A program made the position numbers and the translations under genes. A DNA stretch of 64,000 nt, taken from assembly GCA_015075305.1 (NCBI GenBank), contig JABTUS010000005.1:248001-312000 (forward strand), in the 5' to 3' direction. Below the pieces are notes generated by a model that worked only from the letters and a program-made list of their open reading frames with translations, was not told the origin of the DNA and did no database searches. This DNA is from Opitutaceae bacterium (GTDB lineage Bacteria; Verrucomicrobiota; Verrucomicrobiia; Opitutales; Opitutaceae). Positions 53,851 through 59,900 of this stretch are shown here, one piece after another. Every line of letters begins with the position of its first letter. Positions within the stretch are counted from its first letter, which is position 1.

Positions 53851-53946
53851 TCCCAGTCATTGGCGTTCGCGCCGCAACCACTGCTTCTCCACGCGGGGAA
53901 GCTCGTTTGACCTCGCTCAAAAAACCTGCCCCTTTTGAAGGCACGC

Positions 53947-55023
53947 ATGCCTTCACGCGCCGTCCTGCTCGTCAACCTCGGTTCACCCGACTCAACCTCC
54001 GTACCCGACCTTCGCCGATACCTTGGCGAATTCCTCGGCGATGAACGGGTGATCGACCGTCCGTCGCAACCCTGGCGCGCGCTGCTGCTGCACGGGGTCA
54101 TTCTCCGCAGCCGGCCAAAAAAATCGGCCCATGCCTATGAGCAGATCTGGCAGCCGGACGGCTCGCCCCTGATCATCACATCGAAGAAGGTTCAAAGCGA
54201 TCTCGCGTCGGCGCTGGGCCCCGGCATTCCCGTGTATCTCGCCATGCGATACGGACAGCCTTCCATCGCGTCCGTCGTGGGACAGATGGCCGACGACGGC
54301 GTAACCGATCTTCTGCTATTTCCCCAGTATCCGCACTACGCCATGTCATCCTGGGAAACCGTGGTGGTGAAGGTCCATGAGGAGCTTGCCGCCCAGGCGC
54401 CCGGCATCCGCGTGCAAACCGTCCAGCCCTTCCATTCCGACGCCGACTACATTGACGCCCTGCACGAGGTGTCGGCCCCCTATTTTTCGCGACCGCACGA
54501 TCACGTGCTGTTCTCCTACCACGGCATCCCCGAGCGGCACTTGAGGAAGGCGGACTCCTCGAAGGCGCACTGCCTGACCAAATCGGACTGCTGCACCACC
54601 TGCTCCCCGGCCCACTCAACCTGCTATCGCGCCCAGTGCCTTGCCACAACCCGCGCACTGGTGCGCCGCGCGGGGCTTTCCTCGGACCGTTATTCGGTCT
54701 CCTACCAGTCGCGGCTTGTCGGCGAACCCTGGCTCACGCCCTACACGGACTTCGAATTGAGGAGGCTCGCCGCCGAGGGGAGGAAGCGCATGCTGGTCAT
54801 CACGCCGGCTTTTGTGACCGACTGTCTGGAGACCCTCGAGGAGATCGCACAGCAGGGACGGGCGGATTTCCTATCCGCGGGCGGAACCAGCTTCGAGCAC
54901 ATCCCCTGCCTCAATGACCAGCCCCCGTACATCCGCTTCCTCGAGAATCGCGTGCGGTCATGGATTGGAGGCGAATCGCCCGGCGACACCCATGCCCGGC
55001 AGACGGCCGCGCTTGCACGCTAG
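53947..55023 (+). CDS. hemH: Ferrochelatase with internal cysteine cluster
   Basis: The 358-residue enzyme inserts iron into protoporphyrin IX. The core is typical: AVLLVNLGSPDS at the start, LFPQYPHYAMSSW near 122, the metal-binding histidine in FSYHGIPERH near 190 and the acid-bearing VTDCLETLEEI near 285. Unusual is a compact set of six cysteines at residues 209-231 (C-x5-CC-x2-C-x6-C-x4-C). Bacterial ferrochelatases with internal cysteine ligands for a [2Fe-2S] cluster are known, and this fits that class. ATG at 53947 is preferred over the TTG at 53935. Confidence 0.94.
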   Translation: MPSRAVLLVNLGSPDSTSVPDLRRYLGEFLGDERVIDRPSQPWRALLLHGVILRSRPKKSAHAYEQIWQPDGSPLIITSKKVQSDLASALGPGIPVYLAMRYGQPSIASVVGQMADDGVTDLLLFPQYPHYAMSSWETVVVKVHEELAAQAPGIRVQTVQPFHSDADYIDALHEVSAPYFSRPHDHVLFSYHGIPERHLRKADSSKAHCLTKSDCCTTCSPAHSTCYRAQCLATTRALVRRAGLSSDRYSVSYQSRLVGEPWLTPYTDFELRRLAAEGRKRMLVITPAFVTDCLETLEEIAQQGRADFLSAGGTSFEHIPCLNDQPPYIRFLENRVRSWIGGESPGDTHARQTAALAR

Positions 55024-55083: not shown

Positions 55084-55908
55084 ATGACCAACGGTAGTTC
55101 CGGCTCCACGACGCAGGGGAATTCCGCCCGGGTCTCGACGATCGCCCTGCTCTGGCTGGATCCTGAAGGACGTATTCGATCCGTGAATACGGCTGTCCGC
55201 GCCCTCTGGCGCGCGGATGAGGCTGCACTCGTTGACAGTTTCCTTGTCGACAGGCTTGCCTGGGAGATCACATCCACAGACCCGGACTGGAAGCAGGCAC
55301 AGTGGGACGCACTCCGGTCGGCTGCATGCGGGTGCGCCGTCAGGGCGCTCGTCCAGCCGGTGGGTGGCGGTGATGCCATACCGGTGAGTCTGACACTGGA
55401 ACCAGCCACAGGGGGAGGCCCAGGCTTCTTCGCCGCGGTGTCCGTCGCCGATGCCCCGGAAGCGCCCGCCCCATCTGAACCCAGCCCGCCAGTCCGCGAC
55501 AACCAGCCTCCTTCCGAGACCGAACCGCCGCCCGTTCTTCCCGCATTAAAATGGCTCGCCACCGAGTCTCCCGTGGGCGTCTTCGACCTCGATTTTGATC
55601 TGGGCTATGCTCACTACTCGCCCGCATGGAAGCGCATGCTGGGCTACGAGGAGGCGGATCTGCCGGACACCTTCGAGACCTGGCGGCACCTGCTTCACGA
55701 GGACGATTCCGCCGCGGCGCCCGACCGCATCGGCGTCAACCCGGGCCATGTCACCGCGCGTTCGTTCGCGCTGGACTTCCGCATGCGCCATCGGCGCGGG
55801 CACCCTGTCTGGATGCACTGCATCGGCGTGCAGCATTTCGGGCCCGGCGGCCGCCTCGCCAGGGTGCTCGGTATCCAGTTTGACATTACGGATCGCAAGG
55901 AACTTTAG
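55084..55908 (+). CDS. PAS-domain sensor part, ended by in-frame TAG
   Basis: This 274-residue product has a PAS-like domain at about residues 15-125, a proline-rich linker (about 130-160) and a second PAS domain with its PAC tail at about 165-272 (MRHRRGHPVWMHCI, then VLGIQFDITDRKEL). The stop is TAG at 55906-55908, right where PAS proteins normally continue (ITDRKEL followed by EEHL). The same frame stays open after the TAG and encodes a further PAS, kinase and receiver. Either it is one hybrid kinase gene broken by a nonsense change, or it now makes a separate sensor protein. Confidence 0.7.
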   Translation: MTNGSSGSTTQGNSARVSTIALLWLDPEGRIRSVNTAVRALWRADEAALVDSFLVDRLAWEITSTDPDWKQAQWDALRSAACGCAVRALVQPVGGGDAIPVSLTLEPATGGGPGFFAAVSVADAPEAPAPSEPSPPVRDNQPPSETEPPPVLPALKWLATESPVGVFDLDFDLGYAHYSPAWKRMLGYEEADLPDTFETWRHLLHEDDSAAAPDRIGVNPGHVTARSFALDFRMRHRRGHPVWMHCIGVQHFGPGGRLARVLGIQFDITDRKEL

Positions 55909-55935
55909 GAGGAACACCTCGTCGCCGAGGAGAGG

Positions 55936-57855
55936 ATGCGGCATCTCACGTCCCAGGGACTGGTCGGCGCATTCGATCTCGATTTCATCAAGCGGAGCCA
56001 CTGGTTTTCAACCGGCTGGCGGTCGCTTTTCGCGCAGCCGGAAATGGACCCGGCCCGCCCGAACGACCCCCTCTGGCCGCTCCTCGATGTCCTTCCGGCC
56101 GAACACGCGACGGCAGGGGCGTCATGGCTTTCGGATTACCGCGCGGGGGAAAGCCCCCTGGTCGAGGCAATCACGTTGAAGCGACAGGATGGCGTGGCGA
56201 TTCCCGTCCTTCTCGGGCTCACCCGCCATTTTTCCCGCAGGCAGGATCTGCAGCGAGTCGTCGGCTTCGCCATTCCCCTCGCGGCCGACGCAACATCCAT
56301 GCGCATCGGCCGCACCCTGCCACCCGTGCACCTGATCGGGCCCGCACTCGATGCGCTGACCGAGGCGCTGATAGTCGCCGATGCCTCGGGGAATGTCTCC
56401 TACCTCAACGCCCGTGCCGAAAGTCTCACGAGCCGCACGGCCCGGGGTGGAGGTATGCTGACTCTCGATCAGGCTCTGCCCTTGGTGCGGCGAAGCGACC
56501 TTCAGCCGGCGCAGGATGCGATCGCGACCATGCTCGCTTCGCCGGACCCGGAGGCAGTTTGTTTGGATCACGCCCTGGGACCCTGTCCCGATCGCACTGA
56601 ACCGCTCCCGGTGGTGTGGAACGCGCGAAGGATCTGGGATGCCAGGGGACGCATCGCGGGAGTCGTTGTCGTCATTCACGATCCCCGGGAAACCTCCCTG
56701 AAGCGGGATGAGGTCATTCGCACGAATCGCATGGAGACGCTGGGGCGCCTGGCCCACGGGATTGCGTCCGACTACAACAACCTGCTCACCACGATCCTGG
56801 GCGCAATTTCCCAGGCCAGGGAGAACCGCGATCTTTCGCACCTGGCCAGCGCGGAGAAGGCCTGCCTCGAGGCTTCCGGCCTTTCCCGTCAGTTGATGAT
56901 GCTCGCCAGGCCTGATCCGGCTCCGGGGCGAACGGCCTGCGCCATCGCCGATGTCGCCCACGACGCGGTCCGGCTTGCATCGAGTGGATGCACGGCGCGA
57001 ATCATCCTCGATTTCCCGGACAACCTCCCTCAGGTGCAGGGCGAACGCTCCGAACTGCTTCAGGCCCTGCAGAACCTTGTTCTCAACGCCATCGAGGCGC
57101 TGCCGGAGGATCCGGCGAACGGGCTCGTCCGCCTGCGCGGCAAACCCGCTCATCTTGAGAACAACGACGTGCCGCCGCTTCCCGCCGGCGACTACGTTCA
57201 GATCGAGGTTCAGGACAATGGCTCCGGGATCGCACCGGAAACTCTCGAACACATCTTCGAGCCGTTCTTCAGCAGCCGCCCGCACCACACCGGCCTCGGC
57301 CTCGCCACGGTGCAGTCCATCGTTCGCCGCCACGGCGGGCAGGTCACGGCCAGTTCGCTTCCCAATGAAGGCGCGACCTTCACCCTGTTTCTCCCGGCGA
57401 ATCCTTCCTCGGCCGAAGCTCCACCGAATCCCCGGCCGGCGCTCCGGTTTGGAACCGGACGCGTGCTCTTCATGGATGACGATCCCGCGATCAGCGCGCT
57501 CTCCGCAAGCATGCTGACCAGTCTCGACTACACCTACGATCTTGCCAGAAACGGCGAGGAGGCCCTCGCACTCTACCGACGCTACCTCAACGTAGGCCGT
57601 CCGTACGATGCCGTGATCCTGGACGTCAACATCATCGGCGGCATGGGTGGCGAGGACTGTTTTGCGGAGCTCCAGCGCATGCATCCGGATGTTCGCGCCA
57701 TCATCGCCTCCGGCTATGATGATCCAAACCTCCGTGAGCGGTTCGAGGCCATGGGCTTTGCGGCCTACCTGACCAAACCCTATCGTCTCGGCGATCTCGG
57801 CCGTGCAATCCAGCACGCGCTCGGCTCGCCTGAAAACCGATTCAGTCCCGGCTAG
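55936..57855 (+). CDS. Hybrid histidine kinase-like protein with receiver, H-box histidine replaced
   Basis: The 639-residue product starts at an ATG with AGGAGAGG just upstream. Domains: PAS-like (1-120), PAS (about 135-255), dimerisation region with the sequence LGRLAHGIASDYNNLL near 278, HATPase with NLVLNAIEAL (about 380), DNGSGIAPETL (about 425) and GLGLATVQSIV (about 450), then a receiver (about 515-630) with DDD, the phospho-accepting aspartate in ILDVNIIGG and lysine in YLTKPY. In close relatives the H-box reads GIAHDFNN; here serine 278 takes the place of the histidine, and a histidine occurs four residues earlier instead. Catalytic phosphorylation may be lost or altered. It shares the frame with the upstream PAS part, 27 bases across the TAG. 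Confidence 0.75.
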   Translation: MRHLTSQGLVGAFDLDFIKRSHWFSTGWRSLFAQPEMDPARPNDPLWPLLDVLPAEHATAGASWLSDYRAGESPLVEAITLKRQDGVAIPVLLGLTRHFSRRQDLQRVVGFAIPLAADATSMRIGRTLPPVHLIGPALDALTEALIVADASGNVSYLNARAESLTSRTARGGGMLTLDQALPLVRRSDLQPAQDAIATMLASPDPEAVCLDHALGPCPDRTEPLPVVWNARRIWDARGRIAGVVVVIHDPRETSLKRDEVIRTNRMETLGRLAHGIASDYNNLLTTILGAISQARENRDLSHLASAEKACLEASGLSRQLMMLARPDPAPGRTACAIADVAHDAVRLASSGCTARIILDFPDNLPQVQGERSELLQALQNLVLNAIEALPEDPANGLVRLRGKPAHLENNDVPPLPAGDYVQIEVQDNGSGIAPETLEHIFEPFFSSRPHHTGLGLATVQSIVRRHGGQVTASSLPNEGATFTLFLPANPSSAEAPPNPRPALRFGTGRVLFMDDDPAISALSASMLTSLDYTYDLARNGEEALALYRRYLNVGRPYDAVILDVNIIGGMGGEDCFAELQRMHPDVRAIIASGYDDPNLRERFEAMGFAAYLTKPYRLGDLGRAIQHALGSPENRFSPG

Positions 57856-57970: not shown

Positions 57971-58771
57971 TCAAGCGCCGGCGGACACCAGCACCTGCTC
58001 AATTGCCTCCTGCGCGGCGACGAACCCAAAGCTGCCTGTCACCCAGACTCCCGCGCCGAAGCCCCCTGAACAATCCATGCGCAGGCTGTCTCCCCGCCGG
58101 GGCTCGAGTCCGCAGGTGCCATCCGGATTCGGGTAGACGCGCTGCTCGCTCGACCAGACGCAGCGGATTCCAAAACTCTGCCTCCCGGTCTTCTCTCCCG
58201 GCGCATACCCATGTTCCCGGCGCAGCCGCCTGCGCACCTGCCGCAGGAGTTCGTCGCCGAATGCATCCCCCAGGTCACCCCGCTGGATCAGTCGCGCATC
58301 CTTCCTGCCTCCGGCGCCCCCGATTGTGACTACCGGCAGCCCGCGCGCCCGGGCCATGGCGATGAGCAGGCACTTGTTCTCAAGGTGATCAATCGCATCG
58401 ATGACACAGTTGAAACTGCCGGCGAGCAGTCTCTGCGCACTGGATGACGTGAAAAACTCGCCGATGGCGAGAACCTCGCAGGCGGGGTTGATCCGACGCA
58501 CGCGTTCGGCCAGCACGTCCACCTTCGGCCGGCCAACGGTCTCTTCAAGGGCGGGCAACTGGCGATTCGTGTTCGTGATGCAGACGTCATCGAGATCGAT
58601 GAGCGTCAACCTGCCGATGCCGCTTCTTGCAAGCGCCTCAACAGCCCACGAGCCCACTCCGCCGATCCCGACCACGGCGACATGCGACTGCTGCAGCCGC
58701 TGCAATGCGCGCACGCCCAGCAGGCGCGCCACTCCCCCAAACCGGTCCATATAGGCGGAATCCATTGTCAC
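57971..58771 (-). CDS. tcdA: tRNA threonylcarbamoyladenosine dehydratase
   Basis: The 266-residue ThiF/E1-like protein adenylates and cyclises the N6-threonylcarbamoyl group of adenosine 37 in tRNA. The nucleotide motif VVGIGGVGSWAVEALAR is near residue 33; IDLDDVCITNTNRQ near 58 and VIDAIDHLENK near 122 match the family. A GTG at 58771 overlaps the stop of the nadR-like gene; an ATG two codons later is an alternative start. Last gene of the pnuC run. Confidence 0.9.
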   Translation of the reverse strand: MTMDSAYMDRFGGVARLLGVRALQRLQQSHVAVVGIGGVGSWAVEALARSGIGRLTLIDLDDVCITNTNRQLPALEETVGRPKVDVLAERVRRINPACEVLAIGEFFTSSSAQRLLAGSFNCVIDAIDHLENKCLLIAMARARGLPVVTIGGAGGRKDARLIQRGDLGDAFGDELLRQVRRRLRREHGYAPGEKTGRQSFGIRCVWSSEQRVYPNPDGTCGLEPRRGDSLRMDCSGGFGAGVWVTGSFGFVAAQEAIEQVLVSAGA

Positions 58772-59313
58772 TGCTCCTCCAGAAGGGAGGCCACCGCAGC
58801 CACCGCATGCCTCAGCCGCGCCGCGCCTTCACCCGATATCTCCACGTAGCGCAGCCCGCGATCCTCCAGCGTCCGACGCCACAGCCGCATGCAGGCGGCG
58901 CGATCCTTTTCATCTGGAAACGAACGCTGGGGATCCGGCTCAAACGGCATGTCGGTCAGGCACAGCAGGTAGATCGCATAGCTGCGACACCGAAGCTCGG
59001 AAGCCTCGCGCACCCACGCCGCGCAGGCGCCAGGGAAGAGAAGGTCGGCCCAGAGCACGTTCGTGAGAAGCTCAGTGTCACAAAACACCACGCGCGAAGC
59101 CCGTGCAGCGGCTTCCTCCTCGCTCGCAATCTGTCCGCGGGCGATTTCCTCAAGATCCGCCGCCATCACGCTCCCGCCATGATGGTCCCAGAACTCGCGC
59201 ACGTACTCCGCCGACCAGGGTTCGCCAAAATGCCGGGCAAGATCCTCTGCAAGCCTGGATTTCCCGGTGGACTCAGGACCAAAGATCGCCACGCGAATCG
59301 GGAGGCGCTTCAT
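58768..59313 (-). CDS. NadR-like nicotinamide riboside kinase
   Basis: The 181-residue P-loop protein has Walker A at residue 11 (FGPESTGKSRLAEDLA), YVREFWDHHG near 38 and FCDTELLTNVLW near 76, the pattern of the C-terminal kinase domain of NadR. It likely phosphorylates nicotinamide riboside brought in by PnuC to give NMN. Its start overlaps the pnuC stop by 4 bases. The open frame runs upstream of the ATG but that part only shadows pnuC. Confidence 0.85.
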   Translation of the reverse strand: MKRLPIRVAIFGPESTGKSRLAEDLARHFGEPWSAEYVREFWDHHGGSVMAADLEEIARGQIASEEEAAARASRVVFCDTELLTNVLWADLLFPGACAAWVREASELRCRSYAIYLLCLTDMPFEPDPQRSFPDEKDRAACMRLWRRTLEDRGLRYVEISGEGAARLRHAVAAVASLLEEQ

Positions 59314-59900
59314 GATTTCTGCGCACGAGCGTGCCTTCCCCACGCCACATGGCCCGCGATCGCAAGTCCAAGAAAAACACCATACAGGACAGCCGTGAAA
59401 TGGAGATGCTTCGCGGAATAGACCCCGATCGCCACGGCATTGACCGCAATCCAGACTGACCAGTTCTCGATCTTCTTCCGCGCCTGCATCCACTGGGCAA
59501 TCATGCTGAACACCAGAATGAACGCGTCCCAATGCGGCAGCGCCGCGTCGGTGTGACGTCGCATGAATTCGCCCCACGCCAGGGATGCCGCAACCCCCAG
59601 AACCAGGCAGCCAACCCTGCCCGTCGTGGTGAGTGATGTGACCGGCAGCTCATGCCGGACCCTTCCGTCGCGAATCCCCTTCCACCACTGCCACCATCCG
59701 TAGAGGAGCAGGATGAAGAATATGATCTGGAGTATGGCATCCGAATACAGTCTCGCGGCATGAAACACCCAGCAATAGACGGCCACCTGCAGCAGTCCCA
59801 CCGGCCATGCCAGCAACTGCTGCCTGATCATCAGGACTACGCCGACGACCCCCAGGATGGCACCCAAGGCCTCCCACGCGGAGAATGTCCATCCGTTCAT
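59310..59900 (-). CDS. pnuC: Nicotinamide riboside transporter PnuC
   Basis: The 196-residue membrane protein has about 7 hydrophobic segments and the PnuC traits: EALGAILGVVGVVLMIRQQL near residue 9, the LYGWWQWWKG segment near 66 that lines the binding site, and IENWSVWIAVNAVAIGVYSA near 145. It brings nicotinamide riboside into the cell by facilitated diffusion; trapping needs the kinase encoded next. Coupled by overlapping ATGA to that kinase. Confidence 0.92.
   Translation of the reverse strand: MNGWTFSAWEALGAILGVVGVVLMIRQQLLAWPVGLLQVAVYCWVFHAARLYSDAILQIIFFILLLYGWWQWWKGIRDGRVRHELPVTSLTTTGRVGCLVLGVAASLAWGEFMRRHTDAALPHWDAFILVFSMIAQWMQARKKIENWSVWIAVNAVAIGVYSAKHLHFTAVLYGVFLGLAIAGHVAWGRHARAQKS

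Follow-up and report, generated by a model that had tools for sequence, protein, structure and literature searches.

A 64,000-nucleotide (nt) stretch of an Opitutaceae genome (contig JABTUS010000005.1; hereafter the window) encodes a PAS-rich hybrid histidine kinase that has lost its phospho-acceptor histidine. The gene occupies a single frame on the plus strand, from the ATG at 55084 to a final TAG ending at 57855 (924 codons), and its sole interruption is an in-frame TAG at 55906-55908. The H-box of this copy is RLAHGIASDYNN (GIASDYNN), with a Ser codon, TCC, replacing the His. An earlier prediction, made from the sequence alone, had reported this Ser, the break of one frame inside a PAS-PAS linker and an AGGAGG across the stop, and each of these observations is borne out, the stop lying between PAS matches. 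Comparison with relatives points to a conserved pseudo-histidine kinase, very probably genus-wide, in which the His was replaced in the ancestor that the six readable genus members share (by Ala in five and by Ser in the window). The in-frame stop is private to the window genome among the orthologs read, and most likely represents either a recent nonsense mutation or an assembly or sequence error.

The first search covered 38 genomes, the window's own included, and returned full-length matches in five congeners (57-72% identity) and in seven other genera of the family (42-45%). These matches are positional orthologs, because the pairing of the kinase gene with a gene that we take to be hemH is kept in all ten neighbourhoods compared (five congeners and five other genera). 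A profile search, in which five candidates were scored per genome, gave a strong match (E up to 1e-150) in 167 of 252 family genomes, and 132 of the matching genomes, the window among them, make up the ortholog alignment (six genus members and 126 from other genera). The acceptor column reads His in 125 orthologs, Ala in five and Ser in two. The His is present in none of the six readable genus members and in 125 of the 126 orthologs from other genera. It is also kept in 116 of 116 other histidine-kinase matches, a few of which are one place under two locus identifiers (e.g. L014/L117).

In a quick tree of the 132 orthologs, built without bootstrap, the six His-less genus members form one clade (support of 100 in the Shimodaira-Hasegawa-like approximate likelihood ratio test), and two losses of the His are required in total. 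The second is a Ser in another genus (L248 (G209), L254), with tree neighbours that keep the His. Since the six His-less copies fall in one clade, the loss appears old and shared; the stop is private, so the two features differ in history. The original prediction had asked whether relatives share the stop and the Ser, or instead carry a sense codon and the His. The stop was found in none of them and the sense codon was, whereas the loss of the His proved common to the genus, as Ala in the five congeners, and the His itself occurs only outside the genus.

Purifying selection preserves the His-less gene, judging by two intact congener pairs; the interrupted copy of the window lies outside that evidence. 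The whole-gene ratio of non-synonymous to synonymous substitution rates (dN/dS) is 0.117 in one of these pairs (L003/L004) and 0.15 in the other (L005/L006), is below 0.35 in every domain of both, and ranges from 0.10 to 0.17 across all six genus pairs measured. The six genus copies show neither a frameshift nor a second stop. For the comparison of domain rates, only the three independent pairs among the six were set against controls, namely 36 His-bearing pairs chosen manually as sisters or near-sisters in the tree; its nine tests are uncorrected, and in the wider pairs dS approaches saturation. The rates of the catalytic ATP-binding domain (CA), the dimerization hairpin (DHp) and the receiver (REC) do not differ between His-less and His-bearing pairs (p = 0.71, 0.54 and 0.71). 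The PAS rate is lower in the three His-less pairs (p = 0.03), and the CA-to-PAS dN ratio is raised (1.15-1.70 against a median of 0.64, p = 0.002 from three pairs). The DHp-to-PAS, CA-to-REC and REC-to-PAS ratios are not significantly different (p = 0.11, 0.21 and 0.25). Relaxed selection on the catalytic domains was considered and dropped, since the raised CA-to-PAS ratio is due to slower PAS evolution and CA is not significantly faster. The substitution rates give no sign of the catalytic core being released from selection.

All six genus copies keep the N box Asn, the DNGxG core and GLGL (the core N, G1 and G2 residues), together with the acidic pair, phospho-acceptor Asp, Ser/Thr and Lys of the receiver. 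Also kept in all six is the DxxN motif, with Asp at H+1 and Asn at H+4 (DYNN or DYTN), though H+3 varies; this agrees with the E/DxxT/N pattern that follows the His position in HisKA-type phosphatases. The ATP-binding and receiver motifs had been described as intact, which holds for the receiver, the N box, DNGxG and TGLGL but is slightly too strong for the ATP lid, where a stretch that is mostly FFTTKKxGTGLGL in relatives reads FFSSRPHHTGLGL in the window. The second Lys of TTKK is changed in all six genus copies; in the four that form the window's subclade the first Lys has become Arg and the Gly before TGLGL has become His or Arg.

Loss of the acceptor His rules out ordinary autophosphorylation, and, combined with continued selection, indicates that the protein probably signals by another route. 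The suggestion that the kinase half could act as a phosphatase or allosteric switch thus stands as a likely class, given the His loss in six of six genus members and the purifying selection seen in the intact pairs. We tentatively favour a PAS-controlled phosphatase or phosphate sink as the direction of action, a prediction we would put somewhat short of an even chance. Another kinase or a phosphotransfer protein would supply phosphoryl groups, which would enter at the intact receiver Asp; hydrolysis would be aided by the retained DxxN motif, making the protein a phosphatase or sink and not a source, and the PAS domains would gate the DHp-receiver unit. The direction of phosphate flow, the partner and the fate of the interrupted copy are points that we infer. 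Papers cited by PubMed Central (PMC) number are drawn on here in excerpt. In those excerpts, CckA dephosphorylates its own receiver, with the DxxN motif implicated (PMC4853435), and according to a review the conserved His is dispensable for the phosphatase activity of HisKA (PMC12632262).

Several observations weigh against this phosphatase or sink. The same review notes that the conserved His contributes to HisKA phosphatase activity (PMC12632262), and the H260A variant of HK853 has diminished activity (PMC5727384). No partner kinase, histidine phosphotransfer (HPt) protein or regulator was identified. In L248, the copy with the second loss of the His, the Asn at H+4 is also lost, having become Asp. 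Furthermore, the kinase gene is dispensable in some lineages, because three of the ten genus genomes are without it: six have a readable copy, G002 has a copy cut off by a contig end after its first 84 residues, and in G003, G004 and G006 there is no kinase match in the 1,500 nt 3' of hemH and no full-length match elsewhere. In G003 (L265) and G004 (L268) the place 3' of hemH is occupied by another gene on the opposite strand, presumably ruvC-like. A tree of hemH and gpmI groups G003, G004 and G006 at 100/100, with the branching order inside the genus not resolved. Taken as a whole, we consider it fairly probable that the His was lost ancestrally, that the gene was retained as a pseudo-histidine kinase draining phosphate, and that the window copy carries a private TAG.

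DivL of Caulobacter, which is not known to have a receiver, offers a different model for a transmitter that has lost its His. In such an allosteric switch, the DHp-CA core would bind a partner regulator or kinase without handling phosphate, and the PAS domains would control the contact. Like the genus copies, DivL has PAS input, keeps the histidine kinase boxes and has a conserved residue other than His at the acceptor position. According to the excerpted text on DivL (PMC4211667), this residue is Tyr (Ala in one species) and the protein has neither kinase nor phosphatase activity; RocA similarly acts via CovS (PMC7028121). Fixed genus-specific changes in or by the DHp hairpin (Q302, H311 and E321) would also suit a role in binding. 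However, the genus copies carry Ala or Ser instead of Tyr and have an intact C-terminal receiver, and a complete, constrained receiver and a DxxN motif in six of six copies would be unneeded for pure binding. We regard such a switch as unlikely, though by no means negligible.

Residue 311 of the 3' part, one of the three hairpin positions just named, is His in all six genus members and in none of the 126 other orthologs. A relocated phospho-acceptor, with His 311 taking phosphate from the CA domain or passing it to the receiver, is nevertheless highly improbable. By HisKA geometry the residue would lie far from the usual ATP site, and its fixation may be chance, as the stretch scanned holds 21 such fixed genus-specific columns, this one included. 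The histidine four residues upstream of the H-box position, which the original prediction had put forward as a substitute acceptor, was rejected because it is not conserved; its column reads H, R, Q, H, G and G in the six genus copies.

As a heterodimer partner, the protein might instead use its CA domain to phosphorylate, in trans, the His of a paralogous kinase, or might modulate that kinase. The rate of CA evolution is about as low as in His-bearing orthologs, and His-bearing paralogs are present in the genus; as a precedent, the excerpts on the ChrS pseudokinase describe it as working through its paralog HrrS, with which it forms heterodimers (PMC9491836). The ATP-lid changes in the window's subclade argue against this arrangement, which we consider improbable.

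It could also be that the gene is dying throughout the genus, in a single process of which the replacement of the His, the stop and outright loss of the gene are stages. The private stop, the absence of the gene 3' of hemH in G003, G004 and G006 and the raised CA-to-PAS dN ratio would be in keeping with such decay. Set against them are the low dN/dS in all six genus pairs, the absence of frameshifts and further stops from the six copies, and the attribution of the CA-to-PAS shift to slower PAS evolution with CA not significantly faster. Excess decay of the window copy was likewise rejected: there is no marked excess of private changes at the 188 family-conserved columns (five in the window, one or two in each other genus member), although private differences over the whole copy are also more numerous in the window, at 27 against 3-16 in the other members. 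Decay as proposed at the outset may therefore apply to the window's own copy, which carries the stop, yet is at odds with the remaining His-less copies; as an account of the whole genus it is rather improbable.

At the column of the stop, the 132 orthologs read Glu in 129, Gln in one and a masked residue in one, with a stop in the window only; in the first 12 relatives a Glu codon was found at this position in all 12. None of the 130 other orthologs readable there shares the stop. Being private among the orthologs, it is either recent or an error, and expression of the window's own copy may give no more than fragments or the C-terminal half. A base-call or assembly error would leave the window protein full-length, and is a minority possibility in our estimation. 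It would account for a lone interruption in an otherwise clean frame at a place where a sense residue stands in 130 of the 131 other orthologs, the remaining one being masked. Against it, a congener matches at least 97% of the length of eight among nine neighbouring open reading frames (ORFs), the ninth, proA, being truncated where the retrieved sequence ends; this comparison, which covers the ORFs as delimited, gives no hint of frequent errors.

The original prediction had also proposed that the stop is a designed feature, giving a functional two-protein sensor by restart at the ATG at 55936 or by readthrough of the TAG. The AGGAGG overlaps the stop, the next in-frame ATG follows 27 nt after the stop and 23 nt after the AGGAGG, and domains are recognised on both sides. 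Yet a conserved split or readthrough would keep its stop in relatives, and here it is kept in 0 of 130. The AGGAGG is part of a Glu run that reads RKELEEE in congeners, and its distance from the ATG exceeds the usual spacing; with this origin in Glu codons common to the relatives, and at this distance, it counts only weakly in favour of a two-protein design. Met occurs at the restart column in 20 of the 132 orthologs. A further point against either route is that the proA frame, the hemH frame and the kinase frame itself all end in TAG. The aligned relatives lend no support to a designed split, and we judge a two-protein sensor in the window to be quite improbable.

Among the closest known systems are hybrid kinases of the CckA type (H-box GIAHDFNN), which share the PAS input, a DHp-CA core of the same sequence family, the C-terminal receiver and DxxN. 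The receiver residues of a functional CckA-type kinase are present, whereas the acceptor His is absent in all six readable genus members, and the ChpT/CtrA pathway belongs to CckA. The closest solved chain by sequence is 5idj (E 2.4e-45), titled 'Histidine kinase', which we take to be CckA; 5idm, titled CckA, follows with E 3.3e-33. Pfam matches at E up to 0.1 comprise PAS on either side of the stop, HATPase_c and Response_reg, with no HisKA match at that threshold in either part of the gene. The structure model has a mean predicted local distance difference test score of 72.9 and a predicted template modelling score of 0.33, with DHp blocks down to 33-55; because these blocks are poorly modelled, no geometric conclusion was drawn from it.

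RocA and the ChrS pseudokinase variants, which are not known to be hybrid kinases, resemble the genus copies in being kinase-dead sensors, and act through a partner kinase. In the excerpted account, a frameshift in CA during laboratory evolution gave rise to the ChrS variant (PMC9491836). The excerpts on CCNA_03265, a Caulobacter hybrid kinase, describe a histidine kinase domain without the conserved His and a receiver that keeps its Asp (PMC11481889). That case concerns one protein of one species, whereas here His-bearing and His-less orthologs can be compared across a family.

The features of the gene and its surroundings are collected in Table 1. The hemH-like gene is separated from the kinase gene by 60 nt on the same strand. 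On the 3' side lies a gene on the opposite strand that we take to be tcdA-like. Farther along, the minus strand at 58768-59900 holds two adjoining genes, one presumably nadR-like and ATP-binding with GPESTGKS and the other presumably pnuC-like, which would form a probable nicotinamide riboside uptake pair.

Table 1. Coordinates in the window of the kinase gene, its parts and its 5' neighbour.
Feature	Position	Strand	Basis or remark
hemH-like (ferrochelatase) gene	53935..55023	+	Directly 5' of the kinase gene; adjacent in 10/10 neighbourhoods compared
Kinase gene, 5' part (274 amino acids, aa); two PAS regions, ends at the private TAG	55084..55908	+	Pfam PAS_4 aa 21-72, PAS_3 aa 177-264; ORF
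In-frame TAG; sense codon (Glu) in relatives	55906..55908	+	Ortholog alignment
AGGAGG within the Glu codon run common to relatives	55907..55912	+	23 nt 5' of ATG 55936
Possible restart ORF (639 aa): later PAS regions, DHp, CA, receiver	55936..57855	+	ORF list
PAS domain preceding the transmitter	56347..56694	+	PAS_4, aa 147-262 of 3' part
DHp helical hairpin (helices 266-306 and 310-333 of 3' part)	56704..56907	+	AlphaFold secondary structure (low confidence here); profile aligned with the solved structure of chain 5idj
Ser replacing the phospho-acceptor His (the five other genus members have Ala)	56767..56769	+	Alignment
Genus-specific His, residue 311 of 3' part, at the DHp hairpin	56839..56841	+	Alignment columns
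CA (HATPase_c); core N, G1 and G2 residues kept, ATP-lid residues changed	57046..57402	+	Pfam E 1.9e-23; alignment columns
Receiver with acidic pair, phospho-acceptor Asp, Ser/Thr and Lys kept	57463..57810	+	Pfam E 4.1e-14; alignment columns

Pseudo-histidine kinases are already known as a class, and the gene described here, which combines a histidine kinase architecture missing its His with retention by selection in the congener pairs, would be a further case with good natural controls. Searches of open-licence PMC papers brought up this class and, among the papers listed, nothing on this gene in this family; two other papers, on Ser/Thr pseudokinases (PMC6791715) and split kinases (PMC3591291), were set aside. 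A survey, used in excerpt, reports the His as absent from 0.9% of HisKA domains (722 of 76,471; PMC12632262); His-less domains thus amount to about 1% of the family, and in our judgement roles are known for only a few of them. This rarity, together with the His in 116 of 116 other kinase matches, sets the loss in this gene apart from chance. The occurrence of a private stop and an old active-site loss in one gene cautions against taking both as one event. Related genera carry the same positional ortholog either with or without the His, and of its two losses one can be located on the tree in this genus and the other is independent. The family may therefore serve as a natural experiment to reveal what role is left to a hybrid kinase that can no longer autophosphorylate.
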